DNA of 51,200 bases from Deltaproteobacteria bacterium (GTDB taxonomy: Bacteria; Desulfobacterota; Desulfomonilia; Desulfomonilales; Desulfomonilaceae): contig VGSG01000020.1 in assembly GCA_016875095.1 (NCBI GenBank), positions 1 to 51,200 on the forward strand, written 5' to 3'. Each line of letters starts with the position of its first letter. The stretch's first letter is position 1. Below the pieces are notes generated by a model. The model saw nothing but the letters and a program-made list of their open reading frames with translations, had not been told where the DNA came from and ran no database searches. Both the position numbers and the translations under genes were made by a program. This document shows, one piece after another, positions 1,491 to 40,581 of the stretch.

Positions 1491-4286
1491 CTATCTTCTT
1501 GACCGTTCCGCCTGCTTCGCGGCGTCCTCCTGTTGTCTGCGCGCCTGTTCAGCTTGTCGTCTCTTCTCTTCTTCCGCACGCTGTCGCGCCTGGGCGGCCT
1601 GCTGCTGTTGTTGCTGCTGCCTCAATTGTTGGGCTTGCTGGGCTTGTCGAGCCGCTTGTTCCTGTTGCCGCCGCGCTTGATCGGCCTGGCGCGCAGCCTG
1701 CTGTTGTTGCTGCTGACGTCGTATCTGTTCAGCTTGCCGCGCAGCTTGGTCTTGCTGCTGTCGGCGCGCTTGTTCCGCCTGCCGTGCAGCCTGTTCTTGT
1801 TGCTGACGACGCAACTGCTCCCTTTGCGCCTGCTCCTGCTGCTGGCGACGGACCTGCTCCGCTTGCCGAGCCGCTTGCTCCTGTTGACGCCGCGCCTGTT
1901 CAGCCTGGCGCGCAGCTTGTTCCTGTTGTTGGCGCTGAATCTGAGCCCTTTCAGCCTCTCTTCTCCGCTGTTCCTCCAGTTTCTGCCGCTCCTGCGCAGC
2001 CTTGCGAGCCGAGTCTTCCTGCTGCCGCCGAGCCTGCTCGGCCTGGCGAGCTGCTTCGTCCTGCTGTCGTCGTTGGATCTGGGCTCTTTCCGCTTCTTGT
2101 CGCTTCAGCTCTTCCAGTCGCCGGCGCTCCTCTGCTGCCTTACGGGCCGTATCCTCCTGTTGAAGACGCATCTGGTCAGCTTGGCGTCTCTGTTCCTGTA
2201 AACGCTGCCGGTCTTGCTCCGTGCGTAGGATTTGATCCGCGGGCTGAGGCGGTTGTTGCGCGGAAGGAAGTGACGTCTTATCCGGTGGCTTTCGCGTCGG
2301 CTCCGTAGGTTGAATTGCAAGCGCAGGAGGCTTCTTCAGCCCCTCTTGGAGACGTCGTTGGAGCTCTTCCCGCTTCCGGCGGTCGTCCTCCACAGCAAGC
2401 TGATTCTGGAGACGCTGCTGTTCCAGCACTCGCGGCAGCAGTCCTGCGCCCGCGGCAGCCACTGGCGGGGCAAGTTGCTTGATTTGCTGCAATAGTTTTC
2501 CCCGGGCCTCCGGATCTTTAGACTCCGCGGCCTGTGAGAGCGTCAAATCGACTTTGTCCTTAGTTGCATCGGCGGTTCTGCGGGTTTCAACCGCTTGTTT
2601 CAATTCCGTGAGCTGCTTTTCCAGTTGCGGCACGGCCCGAGGGTTAGGGTACCGCGTCAATTCCCGTTGGAGCTTGTTTAGGTTTTCCTGCGCGAAAAGA
2701 TCCGTCTGGGACGGCTGAGGCCCTCCGAGCTGTTTGAGCGCCTGTCTCTGCAAGTCTTCCCTTTTCCTCGGGTCCTGCTCGCGCGAGATCTCGTTTACCA
2801 AGGTTGTCATGTTCCGGTCTTTAGCCGGGATCGGCATCTTGCCTTCGGCCATGACTCTGCGCGCATCGGTGAGTTCGTTTCTCATCGCGGCGCGCCTCAG
2901 GGGGTCACGCTCTTCGGAGAGCCGAGATCGAAGCGCAAACACCTCCTGCCCCGCAAGGCTCGCCAAGCGGCCTTGCGCCTCAATGCGGTTTCTCAGCCCT
3001 TGCCGGAATTTCTGGCTCACATGGAGATTTTTTTGCCCGTCGAAATTGCTGGCAATCGCGTTGACCAGATTCATCCGAGCTCGCGCGGGCAGGCGGCCTT
3101 CCTCTCTCGCGAGATCTCTGACTCGATGTTCGAGGCGATGGATTCGCCGAGCCATCCAGTCCTGTCGAATGCGCAAGTCATCGAGTTCCCGCAGGACCCG
3201 ACGCAATGTGCCCCGGTCGCGGGCAAGCTGGCCGAAATAAGCCATTCGATACAGTTCCGCTTGTCGCACCCGGTAGTAATTCCAGTAGTAATGATCGTAG
3301 TAAAGGGCCTGGTCCAGGAGCATCCGCCGAACACAGACCCCGATCAGGTCCGGACCCACTCCCCAGGTTCGGTAGACATCATAGGGTATGATCCACTCTC
3401 CGATCGTAGGGATGAAGACCACAATGCCTGCGCCGGCGGTAGGTGGCGGATAGACACGTATGTCGTCGAACGGATACGGGTCGTACAGGTAGTCTTCTTG
3501 CACATAGTGCGGCGGCGCGGGCTGAGCCGTCATGGGCGGCTCAACCGGCGGCGTTGCGGCCGCCGCACGGGAGGGACACGCGTCGAGACGAGCCGCGAGC
3601 GATCCGGGGATCGTGGCCGCGGTCATGAGCCGCTCCGCGTCTTCCGCGTACACTTCCAGGGGCTGAGTATCGGCCTTCCCTTCCTTAATTTGCACGGACC
3701 GGCATGATTGAACAACTCTCCCGGCCGCGCCTTCCACAGAAAGGTTTTTCACTTCCACCTGACCCCGTAGCACCGTGACCACGGTCGAGGACGGGTCGTA
3801 TGTCTCGACGATGAAATCCACCGGTTCCGCTGAAGAAACCGGCTGGATGAGCGCAATAGGCGTAGTCACGCTATAGGGGCCGGTTGGGCTGCTTTTTCGA
3901 TCATCGGTGGAAACGCGCAGCACTCCTTCCACAAGCTGGAAGTCTTGGACCTCTCCTCCGTTGGCGGCCCGGGACGACAAGAAAAGCGTTGAAAGGGCCC
4001 CCTGAGAACTCACAATTCCTAGGTCCCATCGAAGCAACAACTTTCCATCTTGCCCGGTCGTCACCGTTTGCCATGTGCTTACCAGGTGGCCTACTCGCAA
4101 CGGTTCTTGGGCTCCTTCGCCTTCTCCAGGGATTTCCGCCTGGCCCTCTACTGCTTCGACCGACGCAGTCCGCTCGGAGGTCGCTGAAGACGGCTGAGGC
4201 ACCACCCCTAACGAAACAAAAATGAAAAAGGCGGAAATAAGAACGCGCCACCCCCTTGCTGGGGCCCAGACTTGCTCCGATTCCAT
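1491..4286 (-). CDS. secreted FecR-domain protein with long Gln/Arg-rich coiled coil
   Basis: A 931-residue exported protein. Residues 1-35 look like a signal peptide (charged start, ISAFFIFVSLGVV core, ending PSSA). A FecR-like beta domain follows (about 40-210: RVGHLVSTWQTVTTGQDGKL... and VLRGQVEVKNL), a fold usually involved in periplasmic ligand or peptidoglycan binding. A Pro/Tyr-rich linker with YDHYYWNYY-type clusters lies near 265-345. From about residue 350 the protein is helical, and from about 650 to the end it consists of tandem near-repeats such as QEQAARQAEQARRQQ, a TolA-like coiled coil. A good AAGGA site precedes the ATG. The gene stands alone. The function is unknown; an envelope-spanning or scaffolding role is inference. 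Confidence 0.75.
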   Translation of the reverse strand: MESEQVWAPARGWRVLISAFFIFVSLGVVPQPSSATSERTASVEAVEGQAEIPGEGEGAQEPLRVGHLVSTWQTVTTGQDGKLLLRWDLGIVSSQGALSTLFLSSRAANGGEVQDFQLVEGVLRVSTDDRKSSPTGPYSVTTPIALIQPVSSAEPVDFIVETYDPSSTVVTVLRGQVEVKNLSVEGAAGRVVQSCRSVQIKEGKADTQPLEVYAEDAERLMTAATIPGSLAARLDACPSRAAAATPPVEPPMTAQPAPPHYVQEDYLYDPYPFDDIRVYPPPTAGAGIVVFIPTIGEWIIPYDVYRTWGVGPDLIGVCVRRMLLDQALYYDHYYWNYYRVRQAELYRMAYFGQLARDRGTLRRVLRELDDLRIRQDWMARRIHRLEHRVRDLAREEGRLPARARMNLVNAIASNFDGQKNLHVSQKFRQGLRNRIEAQGRLASLAGQEVFALRSRLSEERDPLRRAAMRNELTDARRVMAEGKMPIPAKDRNMTTLVNEISREQDPRKREDLQRQALKQLGGPQPSQTDLFAQENLNKLQRELTRYPNPRAVPQLEKQLTELKQAVETRRTADATKDKVDLTLSQAAESKDPEARGKLLQQIKQLAPPVAAAGAGLLPRVLEQQRLQNQLAVEDDRRKREELQRRLQEGLKKPPALAIQPTEPTRKPPDKTSLPSAQQPPQPADQILRTEQDRQRLQEQRRQADQMRLQQEDTARKAAEERRRLEELKRQEAERAQIQRRQQDEAARQAEQARRQQEDSARKAAQERQKLEEQRRREAERAQIQRQQQEQAARQAEQARRQQEQAARQAEQVRRQQQEQAQREQLRRQQQEQAARQAEQARRQQQDQAARQAEQIRRQQQQQQAARQADQARRQQEQAARQAQQAQQLRQQQQQQQAAQARQRAEEEKRRQAEQARRQQEDAAKQAERSRR
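1495..2210 (-). repeat. tandem codon repeats encoding coiled coil
   Basis: The 3-prime quarter of the FecR-domain gene is built from imperfect repeats of about 36-45 bases, rich in CAG, CAA, CGG and GCC codons, encoding units of the type RRQQEQAARQAEQA. The repetition also creates long open frames on the plus strand, which are artefacts. Confidence 0.7.
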
Positions 4287-27243: not shown

Positions 27244-28596
27244 TCACCGGCGGAGATCCATCTTCAATCCATCCACGAGGTTCTTGAGGGAATTGTCCTT
27301 CTCCAGCAACTTCTCGATCTTCCTGGTCGCGTAGATCACCGTAGAATGGTCCTTCCCTCCAAAAGCGCCTCCTATCTCAGGATATGAAAGTTCAGTCAGT
27401 TCCCTTCCCAAGTACATCGCGACCTGTCTCGGTAAGGCGTAGAGTTTATGCTTCTTTTTCGATTTCACGTCCGAAACCTTCACATTAAACGTCTTTGCCA
27501 CCTGACCTATGATCTCATCCATACCGATCTTGCGGTCGCGACGAGGATAAATGTCCGCAATTGCGGTCTGGGCCAATTCCCTGGTGATAGGGAGGCCCTG
27601 AAGAGTGCTCATGGCGATCACGCGTATCAGGCATCCCACAAGCTCCCGAATATTTGAACGAGCATGCTCCGCAAGGAAATACGCCACGTCGTCAGGGAGG
27701 TACATGGAATCGTCAAAAGCCTTCCTCTTCAGGATCGCTACCCGCGTTTCCAGATCAGGGATCTCCATGTTGGCGATCAGACCCCATCCGAAACGCGATC
27801 GGAGTCGATGCTCGATGTCTGGGATCTCGTTTGGCGGCCGATCCGATGTGATGACGATCTGCTTGCCGTTTTCACAAATGCTGTTAAAGGTGTGAAAGAA
27901 CTCTTCCTGCGTCCGCTCCTTGCCGCCGATAAACTGGATGTCATCAATGAGGAGCAGGTCCACATTGCGGTACTTCTCCCTGAAGTCACCCATCCGGTCG
28001 AAACGGATCGCATTGATCATCTCGTTCATGAATTCTTCCGAGGTGGCAAACGAGATCTTCTTGCTTTTGTCAGTCTCGAGCACGGTGTATCCAATGGCGC
28101 TCATGAGGTGGGTCTTGCCCAAACCGGTGCCGGCGTACAGGAACAAGGGATTATAGTTGCCGCCCAGGCGTTCGCTCACCGCCCTGGCTGCCGCATGGGC
28201 AAACTGATTGCATGAGCCGACCACGAAACTGTTGAAGGTGTAACGAGGGTTAAGATTCTTTTTAAGGGCGAACTCTTCAGTGAGGCTCAGACGCGAAGAG
28301 CTGGACGGGGAAGCGTCCACCGAATTTTGAGGTTGGCCTTCCTGATGGTGGCCGAAGTCGTTGCGTGACTCGAATTCTATTTTTAAGTGTGTTCCCGCGA
28401 GCTCAGCAATAGATTGATCCAGGAGACCAAGGTAATTGTCCTTAATCCATGAAATAAAAAAGTTGTTCGGAACAGAAAGAAGGATGCGGCCGTCAGAGAC
28501 GTCCTCGCAGCATATGGGCTTCAACCAGGTGACCAGTGTGTGCTCGTTCACCCGGCCGCTGAGCAGATTCATGCATTGGGACCACAAGTCGTTCAT
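27244..28596 (-). CDS. dnaA: chromosomal replication initiator DnaA
   Basis: A 450-residue initiator. Domain I (about 1-80) is followed by a short, Ser-rich linker and the AAA+ domain, with Walker A GTGLGKTHLM near 155-164, Walker B LLIDDIQFIGG and sensor ITSDRPP. Domain IV carries the DNA-binding helix-turn-helix and signature GGKDHSTVIYA. It melts the origin and may repress its own gene. The 66-bp gap upstream (28597-28662) is AT-rich (AATAAGATATATTC) and must hold its promoter. Confidence 0.97.
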   Translation of the reverse strand: MNDLWSQCMNLLSGRVNEHTLVTWLKPICCEDVSDGRILLSVPNNFFISWIKDNYLGLLDQSIAELAGTHLKIEFESRNDFGHHQEGQPQNSVDASPSSSSRLSLTEEFALKKNLNPRYTFNSFVVGSCNQFAHAAARAVSERLGGNYNPLFLYAGTGLGKTHLMSAIGYTVLETDKSKKISFATSEEFMNEMINAIRFDRMGDFREKYRNVDLLLIDDIQFIGGKERTQEEFFHTFNSICENGKQIVITSDRPPNEIPDIEHRLRSRFGWGLIANMEIPDLETRVAILKRKAFDDSMYLPDDVAYFLAEHARSNIRELVGCLIRVIAMSTLQGLPITRELAQTAIADIYPRRDRKIGMDEIIGQVAKTFNVKVSDVKSKKKHKLYALPRQVAMYLGRELTELSYPEIGGAFGGKDHSTVIYATRKIEKLLEKDNSLKNLVDGLKMDLRR

Positions 28597-28662
28597 TGCG
28601 GAAAACTACAATCATTTTAATAAGATATATTCTCGACAGCCTAGCACGGAGGGGTTTCTTTT

Positions 28663-29562
28663 TCAAGAGAAATCTTCGGTGTACCCCAGGAGCGCGAGGA
28701 GGCGGTCAAGTTCTTCTCCGGAATGAAAGTATATCTCCAACCTTCCGGAAGCATTGGCGTTTTGTCTCACCGCCACTTTTGTGGAGAGGAGCCGGGAAAG
28801 CCCCTTTTCCAGCCCTGAGACACGAGAGTGGTCCGTTACATCCTTTGTCTGATGATTTCGCTTTGGTTGCTTAAAATTCTGAATAATCCTTTCAAGTTCA
28901 CGCACGGAAAGCCGCCTCCGCACCGTCTGCCGAGAGAGATGAAGCTGTTTGCTTACGCTCTCCACGGAGAGAAGTGTGCGAGCATGGCCCATAGAGAGCA
29001 GATTATTCCTTACGTCCTCTTTGATGGGGTCTGGTAGTTTGAGCAACCTCACGTAATTGGTAATATTCGATCGATCTTTACCGATGCGTTTGGCCAGGGC
29101 TTCATGAGTATACGAGAATCTGTTGATCAGTGTCTCATATGCTTCCGCGGTATCAAGAGGATTGAGATCTTCCCGCTGAAGGTTTTCGATCAAGGCGGTT
29201 TCTAGGGCTTCGGAATCCGACACGTCTCTAATAATCACCGGGACGGTAGTGTAGCCGGCCATACGCGCGGCACGCCAGCGGCGTTCTCCCGCCACGATCT
29301 GATATGAACCGGTCTGGGTGGGACGCACGATTAGAGGCTGAATGACTCCCATTTCCCTGATCGATTCGCTCAATTGCGCTAGCGCCTGTTCATCGAACGA
29401 AGAGCGAGGCTGGAAAGGGTTGGGCGTCAGATGATCCACCGGCAGAAATACGTGCCTTGCGGCGCTGGGAGATGCCTCGCCCGGCTCGTTCAGCGGTATG
29501 AGCGCATCCAGACCCAGACCCAACGCCGTGCGTCTAGTTCCCGTTTCCGTTCCCTTCGGCAT
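28663..29562 (-). CDS. parB: chromosome-partitioning protein ParB
   Basis: A 299-residue CTP-dependent DNA clamp that binds parS and spreads. The N-terminal ParA-interacting segment (RRTALGLGLDALIP) is followed by the ParB/Srx-fold box with GERRWRAARMAG, ALIENLQREDLNPLDTAEAY, the helix-turn-helix (EALAKRIGKDRSNITNYVRLLKLP) and a C-terminal dimerisation part. An AAGGAG site precedes the ATG, and the start overlaps parA by 29 bases. No parS (TGTTTCACGTGAAACA) was found in the window. Confidence 0.96.
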   Translation of the reverse strand: MPKGTETGTRRTALGLGLDALIPLNEPGEASPSAARHVFLPVDHLTPNPFQPRSSFDEQALAQLSESIREMGVIQPLIVRPTQTGSYQIVAGERRWRAARMAGYTTVPVIIRDVSDSEALETALIENLQREDLNPLDTAEAYETLINRFSYTHEALAKRIGKDRSNITNYVRLLKLPDPIKEDVRNNLLSMGHARTLLSVESVSKQLHLSRQTVRRRLSVRELERIIQNFKQPKRNHQTKDVTDHSRVSGLEKGLSRLLSTKVAVRQNANASGRLEIYFHSGEELDRLLALLGYTEDFS

Positions 29563-30313
29563 CGAGTATCTCCTTCGAGAGCGCGAGATAGCTCTCCGAA
29601 CCTTTGGAGGTGATATCGTAAAGGATCACGGGCTTTCCGAAACTCGGCGATTCCGAGAGCCTCACGTTGCGGGGAATAACGCTTCTGAACACCAAAGCTG
29701 AAAAATGTTTTCGCACATCATCAACAACCTGGTGACATAAGTTGTTTCGGGGATCGAACATGGTGAGCAAGAACCCCTTGATCTTGAGTTCCGGATTGAA
29801 TGCGGACTGCACTCGTCGAATGGTCTGCAAAAGATACCCAACACCTTCCAGCGCATAGTACTCGCATTGAATAGGGATCAGCACCGAGTCCGAAGCAACC
29901 AACGCATTGAGTGTGAGAAAACCGAGCGAAGGCGGGCAATCGATGAAGATGTAATCGTACAAGCCCCGCACATTATCCACGATGGAAGCCAACATTCGTT
30001 CACGAGCCTCAAGGTTGATAAACTCAACCTCCGCGCCGATCAGGTCCTGGGTTGAGGGAAGAATCTGAAGAAATTCCAATGCCGTCGGCCGGGTCACTCG
30101 GTGAAAGACCTCACGGGAAAGGAGCACATCGTAAATGGAGGGTTCCCCGCGATTGAGACGAATTCCCAGCCCGCTGGAAGCATTGGCTTGGGGATCCATG
30201 TCGATTAGGAGGGATCGCCTTTCCGCCAACGCCATGCAAGAAGCCAAGTTCACCGAGGTGGTGGTCTTGCCCACCCCACCCTTTTGGTTACAAATGCAGA
30301 TAACGTGTCCCAT
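29534..30313 (-). CDS. parA: chromosome-partitioning ATPase ParA (Soj)
   Basis: A 259-residue deviant Walker-A ATPase (CNQKGGVGKTTTSVNLA at the start, MDPQANASSGLG, IDCPPSLGFLTLNA). It forms ATP-dependent dimers on DNA, moves ParB-parS complexes and can modulate DnaA. It is coupled to parB by the overlapping end. The 30314-30574 gap upstream holds no gene I can support. Confidence 0.96.
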   Translation of the reverse strand: MGHVICICNQKGGVGKTTTSVNLASCMALAERRSLLIDMDPQANASSGLGIRLNRGEPSIYDVLLSREVFHRVTRPTALEFLQILPSTQDLIGAEVEFINLEARERMLASIVDNVRGLYDYIFIDCPPSLGFLTLNALVASDSVLIPIQCEYYALEGVGYLLQTIRRVQSAFNPELKIKGFLLTMFDPRNNLCHQVVDDVRKHFSALVFRSVIPRNVRLSESPSFGKPVILYDITSKGSESYLALSKEILDAEGNGNGN

Positions 30314-30574
30314 TCTTGAGAACCCACAACATATAGTATCAGAATTTTCCCGGGCACCCTCATATCACAAAAGCAAGCAGACACCAACGCAATTTGTCGA
30401 ACAAGCGCAAGCTTTCAGCAAGACGAAACAACCGCCGCGGTTCAGAAACCCTGCGCATGTCTCGGGATAGAAAAGCCCGGATTCCGTCCTAAGTCGGGAG
30501 GACAGCACAAGCTTCCTCTTCCGCCAGTAGCCGGAATAGAGCCTTAGAGGATACGACTTAGGAATCAGATGGAA

Positions 30575-31237
30575 TTAGGAACTTCTCTCATAGAGAACCA
30601 CTCGACGGAAACGATCCGAGAAGGGCAGCGTTCCCTCCCACGCGCGTACTTCCTCGAAGCCTTCAAGCATTAAAGGGAGCCCTCTGGATAAAGGCCCCGC
30701 CATGCGCACGAGGCGCCCTCCAGGGGAAAGGACGAGAGAAAGGCGTTGAAGAATGGCCGGATCGGAAGAAAACGCGCGCGAGACCACAGCTTGAAACAAA
30801 AACGGCTTAGGCCGACTGAAAAGCTTGTCGAGACTCAAGTTGAGGAAACGCGCATTAGAGATACCCAACTCGCGCGTAACATACTTGAGAAAGACGATCT
30901 TAGCCGGATCTCGGTCCATCAGCGTAACCTGCTTGCGCACATCCGCGGTGGCGAGGACCAACCCCGGAAAACCTCCTCCGCATCCCACATCCAGAAGATT
31001 GAGGGGAACATCAATGGGCAGGACTTTAAAGACCGAGAGTGAATCGAGAAAGTGCAGAACGGCAATTTCCGTTGGGTCATGCGCTGACGTGAGATCCAGC
31101 CGAGTGTTCCATTCGATAAGACGTTCCAGGTGGCGTGTCATCAACTTTAGAGCCGATTCGCGAACCGGGACTCTTAAGATCGCCGCCCCGCGCGTTAGTA
31201 CGCGCAGAGGATCGCGTTCACGGTTTCGTACAGTCAT
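30575..31237 (-). CDS. rsmG: 16S rRNA m7G527 methyltransferase RsmG
   Basis: A 220-residue SAM-dependent methyltransferase (GidB family). NTRLDLTSAHDPTEIAVLHFLDSL and the SAM loop LLDVGCGGGFPGLVLA, followed by MDRDPAKIVFLKYV and VVSRAFSS, are diagnostic. It modifies G527 of 16S rRNA. The ATG at 31237 lies within the end of cutA (overlap about 20 bases); a TTG at 31249 is an alternative. rsmG next to parA-parB-dnaA is a common origin arrangement. Confidence 0.95.
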   Translation of the reverse strand: MTVRNRERDPLRVLTRGAAILRVPVRESALKLMTRHLERLIEWNTRLDLTSAHDPTEIAVLHFLDSLSVFKVLPIDVPLNLLDVGCGGGFPGLVLATADVRKQVTLMDRDPAKIVFLKYVTRELGISNARFLNLSLDKLFSRPKPFLFQAVVSRAFSSDPAILQRLSLVLSPGGRLVRMAGPLSRGLPLMLEGFEEVRAWEGTLPFSDRFRRVVLYERSS

Positions 31238-31538
31238 CGATCCATGCAAGATAGGCCGGCAAACCCTGCGCGATGGGAAGCGCGATAATCTCGGGAAGTT
31301 GGTAAGGGTGAAGTTTCTTGACCGCGTCCTGGAGCCTTGGGAAGAGTTCCAATCTCGTCTTCATGATCATCAGCCGCTCTGTTTCGTCGCACACACGGCC
31401 GTCCCAGAAATAGATGGATCGAATTTCCGGAACGATGTGCACGCACGCGACCAGCTTCTCTTCGACGAGGAAACGCGCGATTTCCGCGGCCTTAGCCGGA
31501 TCGTCAATGGTAACAAGACAAACGATGTATGAACCCAT
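31218..31538 (-). CDS. cutA: CutA-family divalent-ion tolerance protein
   Basis: A 106-residue trimeric CutA1-type protein (YIVCLVTIDDPAKAAEIARFLVEEKLVACVHIVP; SIYFWDGRV; HPYQLPEIIALPI). CutA has been linked to copper and other divalent-ion tolerance, but its molecular role is unclear. The ATG at 31538 has a GGAG site; a longer 119-residue version is unlikely. Its end overlaps rsmG, so the two are co-translated. Confidence 0.92.
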   Translation of the reverse strand: MGSYIVCLVTIDDPAKAAEIARFLVEEKLVACVHIVPEIRSIYFWDGRVCDETERLMIMKTRLELFPRLQDAVKKLHPYQLPEIIALPIAQGLPAYLAWIDDCTKP

Positions 31539-34283: not shown

Positions 34284-35537
34284 TTACTTTTCCGACATCA
34301 ACGCCGCGCCGGCAAGAGGACGCGACCGAAGATATTTCTCGAAATGGACGACTATTTCGTCAACAGTGCGCCTCATCTCTCTCAAGGCAGGTTCGCCCTT
34401 CTTCAGCCACGTGTCCTTGTGTTCGTTTTCTCGAACGACCTGAAAGAGCTTCAGGTGAGACAGGTAGAGTTTGCGGTAAAGGAGGCTCAGCGTGCCGAGC
34501 CATTCCAATTCATCAATCATCCTCTCCTGTTCCAAATATTCGGACGCGAGAGAAGTCATGAAAGCCTGTTGATACAACACGAGCTTGAGCAGCGCCAACA
34601 CTTCAAGAGGGCTGATGTTCTGTCGTCTTACCCTCTCGTTTAGAATGCTGAAGAAGGTCCGGGGCTCAAGGTCGTCACGGAACGCTCGAAGCGCGGGAAG
34701 CCCAAAGAGATGGCGTTCGGGTCGATCTCGGTGGTAAGCCCCGGGATCGCCCGCTACCTTTTTGCGAGCTCTTTCGCTGACCAGCCTTCCAATAGAGGCA
34801 TCATCTACTGAAGACGATGAAGTCTTCAAGTACGCAATCGTCACGTATTTGAATTCCGGCCGGAGACCCTCGGTCACCCTTCTCAGGAAAGTCAGCGGAC
34901 GGGTCATGTTCTTCTCCTGTCCGGACCATCCTGCCATCGGTAGGTTCATGCGGACACTGCCGCCGGCCCTATCCAGACCCACCACCACAAAGGAATGCAT
35001 GTCCGGCCGAAATTTTTTCGTCAGCCCTTCCCACCAAAAGGCCCTGAGTCCCCTGGGAGTAACGATCTCGCCACGAGATTCATCTTCCGCCCGTGGGCTC
35101 CAGCCCAGATAGGTCTGGACCGGCGCGCCTTTTTTCAGATAAGACTCTATCCGAAGCACGTATTCTTCCCACCCCGCGGGCTCCGCGGCCTCAGCAGGCG
35201 GCCCCCTTTTCTCGTACGTCAGCCCGTACAGACTCGCGAGCCACTTGTCGTCATCTTCCACCCAGAAGCGCTGCGGCATAGCCAATGCGCGCCGGATGTA
35301 GAAAAACCCGTAGGGAGTGGTCGAGTAGTACACCGATTTCGGATAGGTAAGGTCTTGTACGAATGAGCCAAGCACCATGGCTCGGGAGGCCAGCCCTCAG
35401 TCCAATTGAGCCCGCTGAACAACATACGGCGTCCATTTCGCGGTGATTTCTTCGCTGAGGATCGGGTCGGGGAACACCAAAGCCAAACCCGCTGCACAGA
35501 GAAACGCCATCAATTCGTGAAGGTTCCCGCTCTGCAT
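34284..35537 (-). CDS. C39-like peptidase-fold protein with in-frame TGA at the nucleophile position
   Basis: Read through the TGA at 35399-35397, this gives about 417 residues. An ATG at 35537 has a strong GGGGGGTG site, followed by a hydrophobic, signal-like segment (LMAFLCAAGLALVF) and AKWTPYVVQRAQLD, then TGA, then GLASRAMVLGSF. C39-type cysteine peptidases and BtrH-like relatives have their nucleophile in a motif of the type QxDCGxAsxaM, so the TGA falls where that Cys belongs. Downstream, WEEYVLRIESYLKKGAPVQ and MHSFVVVGLDRAG fit the rest of the fold, with the catalytic His. The last 170 residues are helical and unrecognised. The ATG at 35378 has no ribosome-binding site. The options are selenocysteine, nonsense mutation or error. 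Confidence 0.5.
35365..35383 (-). promoter_or_regulatory. bSECIS-like hairpin after second in-frame TGA
   Basis: On the minus strand GAGCCA pairs with TGGCTC around the loop TGGTGCT. The stem starts 13 bases and the loop 19 bases after the TGA, with G as the second loop base. The geometry is nearly the same as at 22072-22089. Confidence 0.35.
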
Positions 35538-39960: not shown

Positions 39961-40581
39961 ATGAAGATCAGCCATGTGCAGACGTTTTCCGAGGAGTTCC
40001 TCATTGAGAAGTTGCGCGGGATAACCATGCTAAAGGCCCCGGACGTGACGGTGTATGAAAAGGCGTTTATATCTTTGGAGAAAATTGCCGTGGAGTGTCT
40101 CTCGCCTCCGCAAAACTACATACTCCGCTCGGAATTAAAGAAGGTGCGGGAGTTGAAGTGGGCTCTGGAAGAACATGGTGTGGACCTGTTCGAGCTCAAC
40201 GGCTTCCTGCGTCTCACCCTTGACGGGCTCGATGATCCCGTGGACTTGCTTCCGCCCGTGGTGGAGGAATCCATAGAAAGGGACGGGAGTGTTCACCTCA
40301 TTGTCAATGACGGGATGCACAGAGTGTATATGGCCTATCGCGAGTGGGTGATTCCCCAGGTGATTTCCATCAGAGGCATACCCAAGCACCTCCCCTATTA
40401 TGCGTATCCGGTCCCCGGGGGTTGGGCCCGAGTGGAGGAAAGGGATGATCTGCCGCCGGGGTACCTCAAGAAATGGCATCGGATCGAGAATTACCACGCG
40501 CTCTATCGCAACTTCAATTCGCAGTTCATCAATGTGGGCGGCCCCAGGCAGTTCTCCGAGAACAAGGGTCCGGGAACCTGA
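39961..40581 (+). CDS. hypothetical protein with ParB/Srx-like DGxHR motif
   Basis: A 206-residue soluble protein with no confident family. The segment HLIVNDGMHRVYMAY (about 111-125) resembles the DGxHR loop of the ParB N-terminal/sulfiredoxin fold, where it binds nucleotide. The C-terminal part is rich in aromatic residues (YYAYPVPGGWARVEERDDLP; ENYHALYRNFNSQF). An AGAAGGT sequence lies just before the ATG. It could be an enzyme acting on a nucleotide-linked substrate. It stands alone between a repeat and a convergent gene. Confidence 0.55.
   Translation: MKISHVQTFSEEFLIEKLRGITMLKAPDVTVYEKAFISLEKIAVECLSPPQNYILRSELKKVRELKWALEEHGVDLFELNGFLRLTLDGLDDPVDLLPPVVEESIERDGSVHLIVNDGMHRVYMAYREWVIPQVISIRGIPKHLPYYAYPVPGGWARVEERDDLPPGYLKKWHRIENYHALYRNFNSQFINVGGPRQFSENKGPGT

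Follow-up and report, generated by a model that had tools for sequence, protein, structure and literature searches.

A predicted bacterial selenoprotein with selenocysteine at a C39-like nucleophile site

The DNA analyzed here, a stretch of 51,200 nt that we call the window (assembly GCA_016875095.1, contig VGSG01000020.1), comes from a Deltaproteobacteria bacterium (Desulfobacterota; Desulfomonilaceae) and contains a gene that is best read as encoding a selenoprotein in which Sec occupies the nucleophile site of a C39-like domain. On the sequence comparisons described below, we give this reading a probability of about 0.83. The comparisons reveal a conserved in-frame TGA, a conserved hairpin downstream of it, conserved Gln, predicted Sec and His positions, and the presence of Sec machinery in the genomes concerned. 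We are less sure of the acyl step that we propose for the protein than of Sec at the C39-like site, and the figure of 0.83 overlaps the one that we attach to a redox-active selenoprotein. The features discussed are collected in Table 1.

The frame that runs from 35537 to 34284 on the minus strand contains a lone TGA at 35399-35397 and is otherwise open, with 46 sense codons upstream of the TGA from the ATG at 35537 and 370 downstream to the TAA, which confirms the original prediction that the frame runs on across a single TGA. That prediction also assigned a ribosome-binding site to the 46-codon segment and none to the internal ATG at 35378, and the sequence agrees on both points: GGGGGGTGA lies upstream of the ATG at 35537, and a well-placed Shine-Dalgarno sequence is absent from the 20 nt upstream of ATG 35378 (GAGGGCTGGCCTCCCGAGCC). 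The ordinary ORF call for the gene, 35378-34284, begins at this internal ATG and the active site is thereby lost from it, so the gene illustrates how selenoprotein genes of this kind escape. Elsewhere TGA serves as a normal stop, terminating 6 of the 14 frames listed. The hydrophobic segment at the N-terminus and the classic-looking signal of one homologue (L020, MRTKKF...ANGVRA/EE), both judged by eye, suggest that the window gene product is probably exported.

Table 1. Features of the predicted selenoprotein gene, with positions given in the window
Feature	Position	Strand	Remarks
Predicted selenoprotein gene	34284..35537	-	ATG to TAA, 417 residues, Sec at 47; homologues L010, L020
In-frame TGA, predicted Sec47	35397..35399	-	C39 nucleophile position; same codon in 3/3 distinct homologues
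N-terminal hydrophobic segment, probable export signal	35457..35537	-	judged by eye
bSECIS-like hairpin	35365..35383	-	6-bp stem, 7-nt loop UGGUGCU, begins 13 nt past TGA
Gln41 codon, equivalent of LahT Gln21	35415..35417	-	invariant 3/3; aligned at E 1.1
His181 codon in RPDMHSFVVVG, candidate general base	34995..34997	-	invariant 3/3

A scan of 84,980 genomes with short exact peptide patterns, the reach of which is limited to close relatives, returned one relative, L010, in a deltaproteobacterial metagenome-assembled genome. A profile search of 395 sampled genomes of the window's phylum located the gene in three of them, namely the window's own genome, G064, and G122. The G064 locus is the same as L010 across 3073 identical bases, so the distinct sequences number three: the window gene, L010, and the homologue in G122, L020. 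L020 is 46% and L010 38% identical to the window protein. A TGA occupies the same codon in all three, and among the 391 shared columns this is the only one to hold a TGA. Invariant columns are found on either side of it (8 of the 36 shared columns upstream and 105 of the 354 downstream), and the residues conserved around Sec47 include P37, Y38, Q41, and D46 before it and L49, S51, R52, and A53 after it. A nonsense mutation that turned a Cys codon into TGA and left a dead gene would look just like this if a single TGA were seen in one genome, but here the same TGA stands in three divergent sequences whose frame is otherwise open and conserved. On this sequence comparison the dead-gene account is already refuted unless all three sequences share the mutation or an error, and we regard it as extremely improbable.

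The original prediction proposed an alignment of homologues, in which Cys at the TGA position would favor recoding or the mutation of a true Cys. The frame is conserved on both sides of the TGA, but the close homologues carry TGA at this codon, not Cys. No full-length homologue with Cys at Sec47 was found (the gene occurs in 3 of the 395 sampled phylum genomes, with TGA in all), and Cys at this position was seen at the superfamily level only, in PF13529 and LahT. Among the genomes sampled, members are scarce and scattered, being present in 3 of 395 phylum genomes and in 1 of 42 genomes of the window's class. When only the window protein was used as the query against 60 relatives, the one match was the window's own genome (1/60), and class-level searches yielded self-matches only, whether in the class to which the L020 genome belongs (1 of 5 genomes), in that of the L010 genome (1 of 1), or in the window's (1 of 42). 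A second phylum search recovered the same two other homologues (2/394) and nothing new, and the gene was found in none of three genomes of another class. No new member emerged from plasmids searched with each of the three proteins, from phages searched with the L010 protein only, or from viral contigs searched by the L010 protein, the alignment, and a DNA pattern. The L010 locus has a peculiarity at its start (L010:3891-3935), where an ATG at 3894 lies behind a good ribosome-binding site and is out of frame with the homologue; a run of eight A separates this ATG from the frame, and the arrangement may reflect an indel in the assembly, or else the gene may start in an unusual way.

The hairpin downstream of the TGA was described in the original prediction as a GAGCCA/TGGCTC stem with its loop 19 nt downstream and a geometry fitting a bSECIS element. 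According to PMC13188914, the bSECIS model has a stem of 4-16 bp, a loop of 3-9 nt with a G within its first two positions, a loop located 16-37 nt past the UGA, and an energy of -7.5 kcal/mol or lower. The window hairpin, GAGCCA-UGGUGCU-UGGCUC, has a loop that begins 19 nt past the TGA and an energy of -8.5 kcal/mol, and the hairpins of all three genes lie within the published limits (6 bp, 7 nt, UGG, 19 nt, -8.5), so that the description stands. With loop, spacing, and energy limited in this way, perfect hairpins of at least 6 pairs follow 56 of the 1757 TGAs in the window (20 of 884 on one strand, 36 of 873 on the other), and the hairpin region shows no folding advantage over shuffled sequence (z 0.40 and -0.26 for the window, -0.95 and -0.92 for L010). 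Because comparable hairpins are not rare and the folding is no better than that of shuffles, a single genome would be weak evidence, and it is conservation in the homologues that lifts the combination of hairpin and TGA above chance.

This conservation is seen at the level of the bases as well as the residues. Across the three genes, 18 of the 19 hairpin bases (GAGCCATGGTNCTTGGCTC) agree, with the single free base in the loop, and the hairpin is the best-conserved 19-nt segment of the whole three-gene alignment. Invariant residues whose codons have 4 or 6 synonyms number 55, and the third base is kept in all three genes at 8 of these; four of the 8 are the four hairpin stem positions, all of which are conserved. 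The hypergeometric chance of finding all four stem positions among the eight is 2e-4, for a test that was picked post hoc. The GC3 of the three genes spans 34% to 65%, yet the third bases of the stem are kept. As the stem is invariant in all three genes, covariation adds no support. The strict hairpin scan detected the SECIS region in neither of the two SelD control genes read on the correct strand, and we therefore do not treat it as a proven SECIS predictor.

A conserved hairpin at this location could instead control initiation, in which case the locus would consist of two units, a 46-codon leader that ends at the TGA and a protein that starts from ATG 35378. Met54, the residue encoded by this ATG, is conserved in all three proteins and its codon falls within the hairpin, but Met54 has no well-placed Shine-Dalgarno sequence ahead of it, and Leu49, Ser51, Arg52, and Ala53, which lie between the TGA and Met54, are invariant. 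Furthermore, the C39 Gln-x5-nucleophile motif straddles the TGA, and the part that follows Met54 matches the His half of PF13529 only, with an E of 0.02 for L020 and L010 and no match for the window protein. Taken with these observations, we consider the two-unit arrangement highly unlikely.

The genes for Sec decoding, which had been named at the outset as a check, are present. A tRNA-Sec with anticodon UCA lies in the window's genome (G000:C1:97089), and SelA, SelB, and SelD score above their cut-offs in all three genomes that hold the gene, the SelB match of G064 spanning positions 1-369 of 581. In the window's genome SelB is encoded at G000:C36:31651-33528. The best SelD of each genome is itself interrupted by a single TGA, which falls on the Sec site of a G-U-x-x-K motif; besides the gene studied here, each genome thus contains another, from a verified family of selenoproteins, that requires the same decoding. 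A match below the cut-off in the SelB search, on G000:C73, was identified as EF-Tu by its sequence and its ribosomal-protein context. In G122, the region C31:19091-27942 appears to hold a second clustered Sec set, made up of a selD without an internal TGA, a selA, and a selB in two open frames; this genome, for which the estimated contamination is 8%, also has a separate selA, selB, and Sec-containing selD.

Alternatively, a near-cognate tRNA might insert Trp or Cys at the UGA in place of Sec. This reading is at odds with the Sec machinery of these genomes, in which SelD acts as an internal Sec control, with the bSECIS-spaced hairpin found in 3/3 genes, and with the use of UGA as a normal stop elsewhere, and we judge such read-through to be very improbable.

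The selenoprotein reading is joined to a C39-like domain by profile comparisons. With Cys placed at the TGA, the L010 and L020 proteins score 26.3 and 25.2 bits against PF13529 (Peptidase_C39_2), above its cut-off of 24, and the window protein scores 12.0 bits, below this cut-off. When the TGA is read as Ser, the scores fall to 18.5 bits for L010 (a loss of 7.8 bits, E 0.003) and 16.6 bits for L020 (a loss of 8.6 bits, E 0.012), both below the cut-off, and the window protein has no match. The bits lost in this way indicate that a conserved Cys of the PF13529 profile coincides with the TGA codon; the rest of the domain is still weakly matched in two of the three proteins. The window and L010 proteins have no NCBIfam match at E <= 5. 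A profile made from the three proteins aligned weakly with LahT (PDB 6MPZ, E 1.1), with Sec47 on Cys27 and Gln41 on Gln21. In LahT, Cys27 is the nucleophile and His101 and Asp117 are the rest of the triad; Gln21 had earlier been proposed to have an oxyanion role, but it is 4.3 Å away in the structure (excerpts of PMC6363468).

The residues around these positions are those of a C39-type nucleophile context, with Q41-x5-U47, a D or E before the nucleophile, and UGA in place of the Cys codon. In L010 and L020 the candidate general base, His181, falls inside the stretch matched by PF13529. Of the three proteins, only L010 retains the Asp of the C39 triad, where the window protein has Leu and L020 has Met; the column of this Asp was judged from the H-D-P of L010, which corresponds to N-L-P in the window protein and N-M-P in L020. 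No Cys is conserved in all three proteins: L020 has none at all, and the only Cys of the window protein, Cys14, is in the N-terminal hydrophobic segment. A redox motif of the UxxC/CxxU type is likewise absent around Sec47. By prediction, we assign the family to the bacterial selenoproteins and regard it as related to C39-like proteins, whose mode of action it probably shares, but we do not file it as a C39 peptidase. The proposal that the TGA replaces the catalytic Cys of a C39-like peptidase is upheld as to position, which fits LahT Cys27 and the Cys of PF13529. The word peptidase is too strong, since the Asp is Leu or Met in two of the three proteins and the structural neighbors include enzymes that presumably transfer acyl groups and form amides.

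These neighbors come from AlphaFold models that were poor, with a mean pLDDT of 40.9 and, for the domain model, 48.0. The first 21 of the 50 Foldseek matches listed for the domain model (543 at E <= 10) are papain-like-fold cysteine enzymes, the matches listed include Josephin, phytochelatin synthase, calpain, HlyB, and a C39-like domain, and none reaches an E of 0.001 or better. With VIA-align, most of the 50 rows shown for this model are again papain-like-fold cysteine enzymes, including CcbD, CtaG, and C39 domains. The best Z is 9.2, slightly above the 7 to 8 that is typical of the tool without a clear match, and the Sec-bearing helix is outside the aligned range in all 50 rows shown. C39-like enzymes such as CcbD and CtaG, which we take to be acyl-transferring and amide-forming, are among the top rows (Z 9.2 to 8.1), with chains of ~305-350 residues and the N-terminal part matched; they are Cys enzymes, and with a low-confidence model and a middling Z the likeness is a lead only. 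Given the low confidence of the domain model (pLDDT 48), we read the structural matches as no more than consistent with a papain-like fold.

In the selenoprotein reading, translation would begin at ATG 35537, the hairpin 13 nt downstream would direct SelB with Sec-tRNA(UCA) to the UGA at codon 47, and the ribosome would then continue as far as the TAA at 34284. The resulting protein would have a C39/papain-like catalytic domain, of about residues 35-240, plus a helical C-terminal region, and in the catalytic domain Sec47 would follow Gln41 and pair with His181. The lack of a redox motif and of a conserved Cys leads us to favor a lone nucleophile over internal thiol-disulfide chemistry. We therefore favor a mechanism in which a His181-activated selenolate would, most likely, attack the carbonyl group of an amide or ester to form a selenoester, which would then be hydrolyzed or transferred to an acceptor. 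In view of the missing Asp and the acyl-transferring structural neighbors, acyl transfer is kept as likely as proteolysis.

The main rival to this chemistry also takes the protein to be a selenoprotein, and so overlaps the preferred reading, but has Sec47 perform redox, peroxidase-like reactions on a papain-like scaffold. According to PMC13188914, the majority of known selenoproteins are regarded as redox proteins, and most uncharacterized ones probably have such functions as well. Subtilisin with its catalytic Ser replaced by Sec, a man-made Sec protease, is reported both as an artificial glutathione peroxidase and as an acyl-transferase (excerpts of PMC11273360), and it is this double activity that makes a peroxidase-like function the main rival. 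The incomplete triad would be compatible with a changed function. On the other hand, neither a UxxC/CxxU-type motif nor a Cys common to all three proteins is available to a redox Sec47, L020 being Cys-free, and Gln41 and His181 of the acyl-transfer site are retained. We think a redox role unlikely.

Tentatively, and at slightly less than even odds, we propose that these proteins may represent a natural papain-fold family with Sec as its sole nucleophile, employed outside redox reactions in acyl chemistry that hydrolyzes amides or transfers acyl groups, in which Gln and His are kept, a partner thiol is lacking, and the Asp is dispensable in some members. The Asp of the triad is perhaps dispensable because a selenolate needs less activation. 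A conserved Sec at the nucleophile position of a papain-like domain that has no conserved Cys would allow the advantage of selenium over sulfur beyond redox chemistry to be tested by comparing a single enzyme with its Cys variant.

The window family shares with C39 and C39-like proteins (PF03412, PF13529; LahT/PCAT, 6MPZ) the Gln, the D/E before the nucleophile, and then a His, and C39 domains are among the structural neighbors of the window model. It differs from them in having TGA/Sec for Cys and in missing the catalytic Asp in two of three members, and the window protein has no ABC transporter in frame, has a long helical C-terminal region, and scores below the Pfam cut-off. The nearest existing idea is a predicted selenoprotein of another kind, the one related to the C-terminal region of CTP synthase, which we assume to be a class I glutamine amidotransferase; GxCxG is presumably the nucleophile motif of such amidotransferases. 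This selenoprotein (NF004836) is a predicted glutamine amidotransferase with a GxUxG motif (excerpts of PMC13188914, Table 1, and of PMC12013277) and, like the window protein, has a predicted Sec at work in an enzyme family, here that of the amidotransferases, but its family and fold differ from those of the window protein. In Sec-subtilisin, too, Sec replaces the nucleophile of a protease (excerpts of PMC11273360), but this enzyme is chemically made, derived from a serine protease, and not natural.

No C39 or papain-like family appears in Table 1 of PMC13188914, which covers 119 prokaryotic selenoprotein families and subfamilies, or in the 2022 list of PMC9312934, which includes a "trypsin-like serine protease". 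The words C39 and papain have 0 occurrences in PMC13188914, PMC12013277, and PMC9312934, and the excerpts of PMC10779653 contain nothing on natural Sec proteases. The supposition that a Sec nucleophile in such a peptidase is undescribed is thus in keeping with both published catalogues (PMC13188914, PMC9312934).

The gene neighborhoods of the three homologues share no gene that we could see (Pfam on 8 window frames), and the context therefore gives no function. A group II intron match (RF00029, 52.6 bits) at L020:182-249, on G122:C353, ends ~80 bases upstream of the L020 start codon. In the window, dnaA-, parB-, parA-, and rsmG-like genes, recognized by eye, are adjacent at 27244-31249, at a distance of ~3 kb from the predicted selenoprotein gene; replication origins usually have such genes nearby. 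A very strong Parb-CE match (PF24392, E 8.6e-74) lies at 39961-40581, apart from the parAB-like genes.
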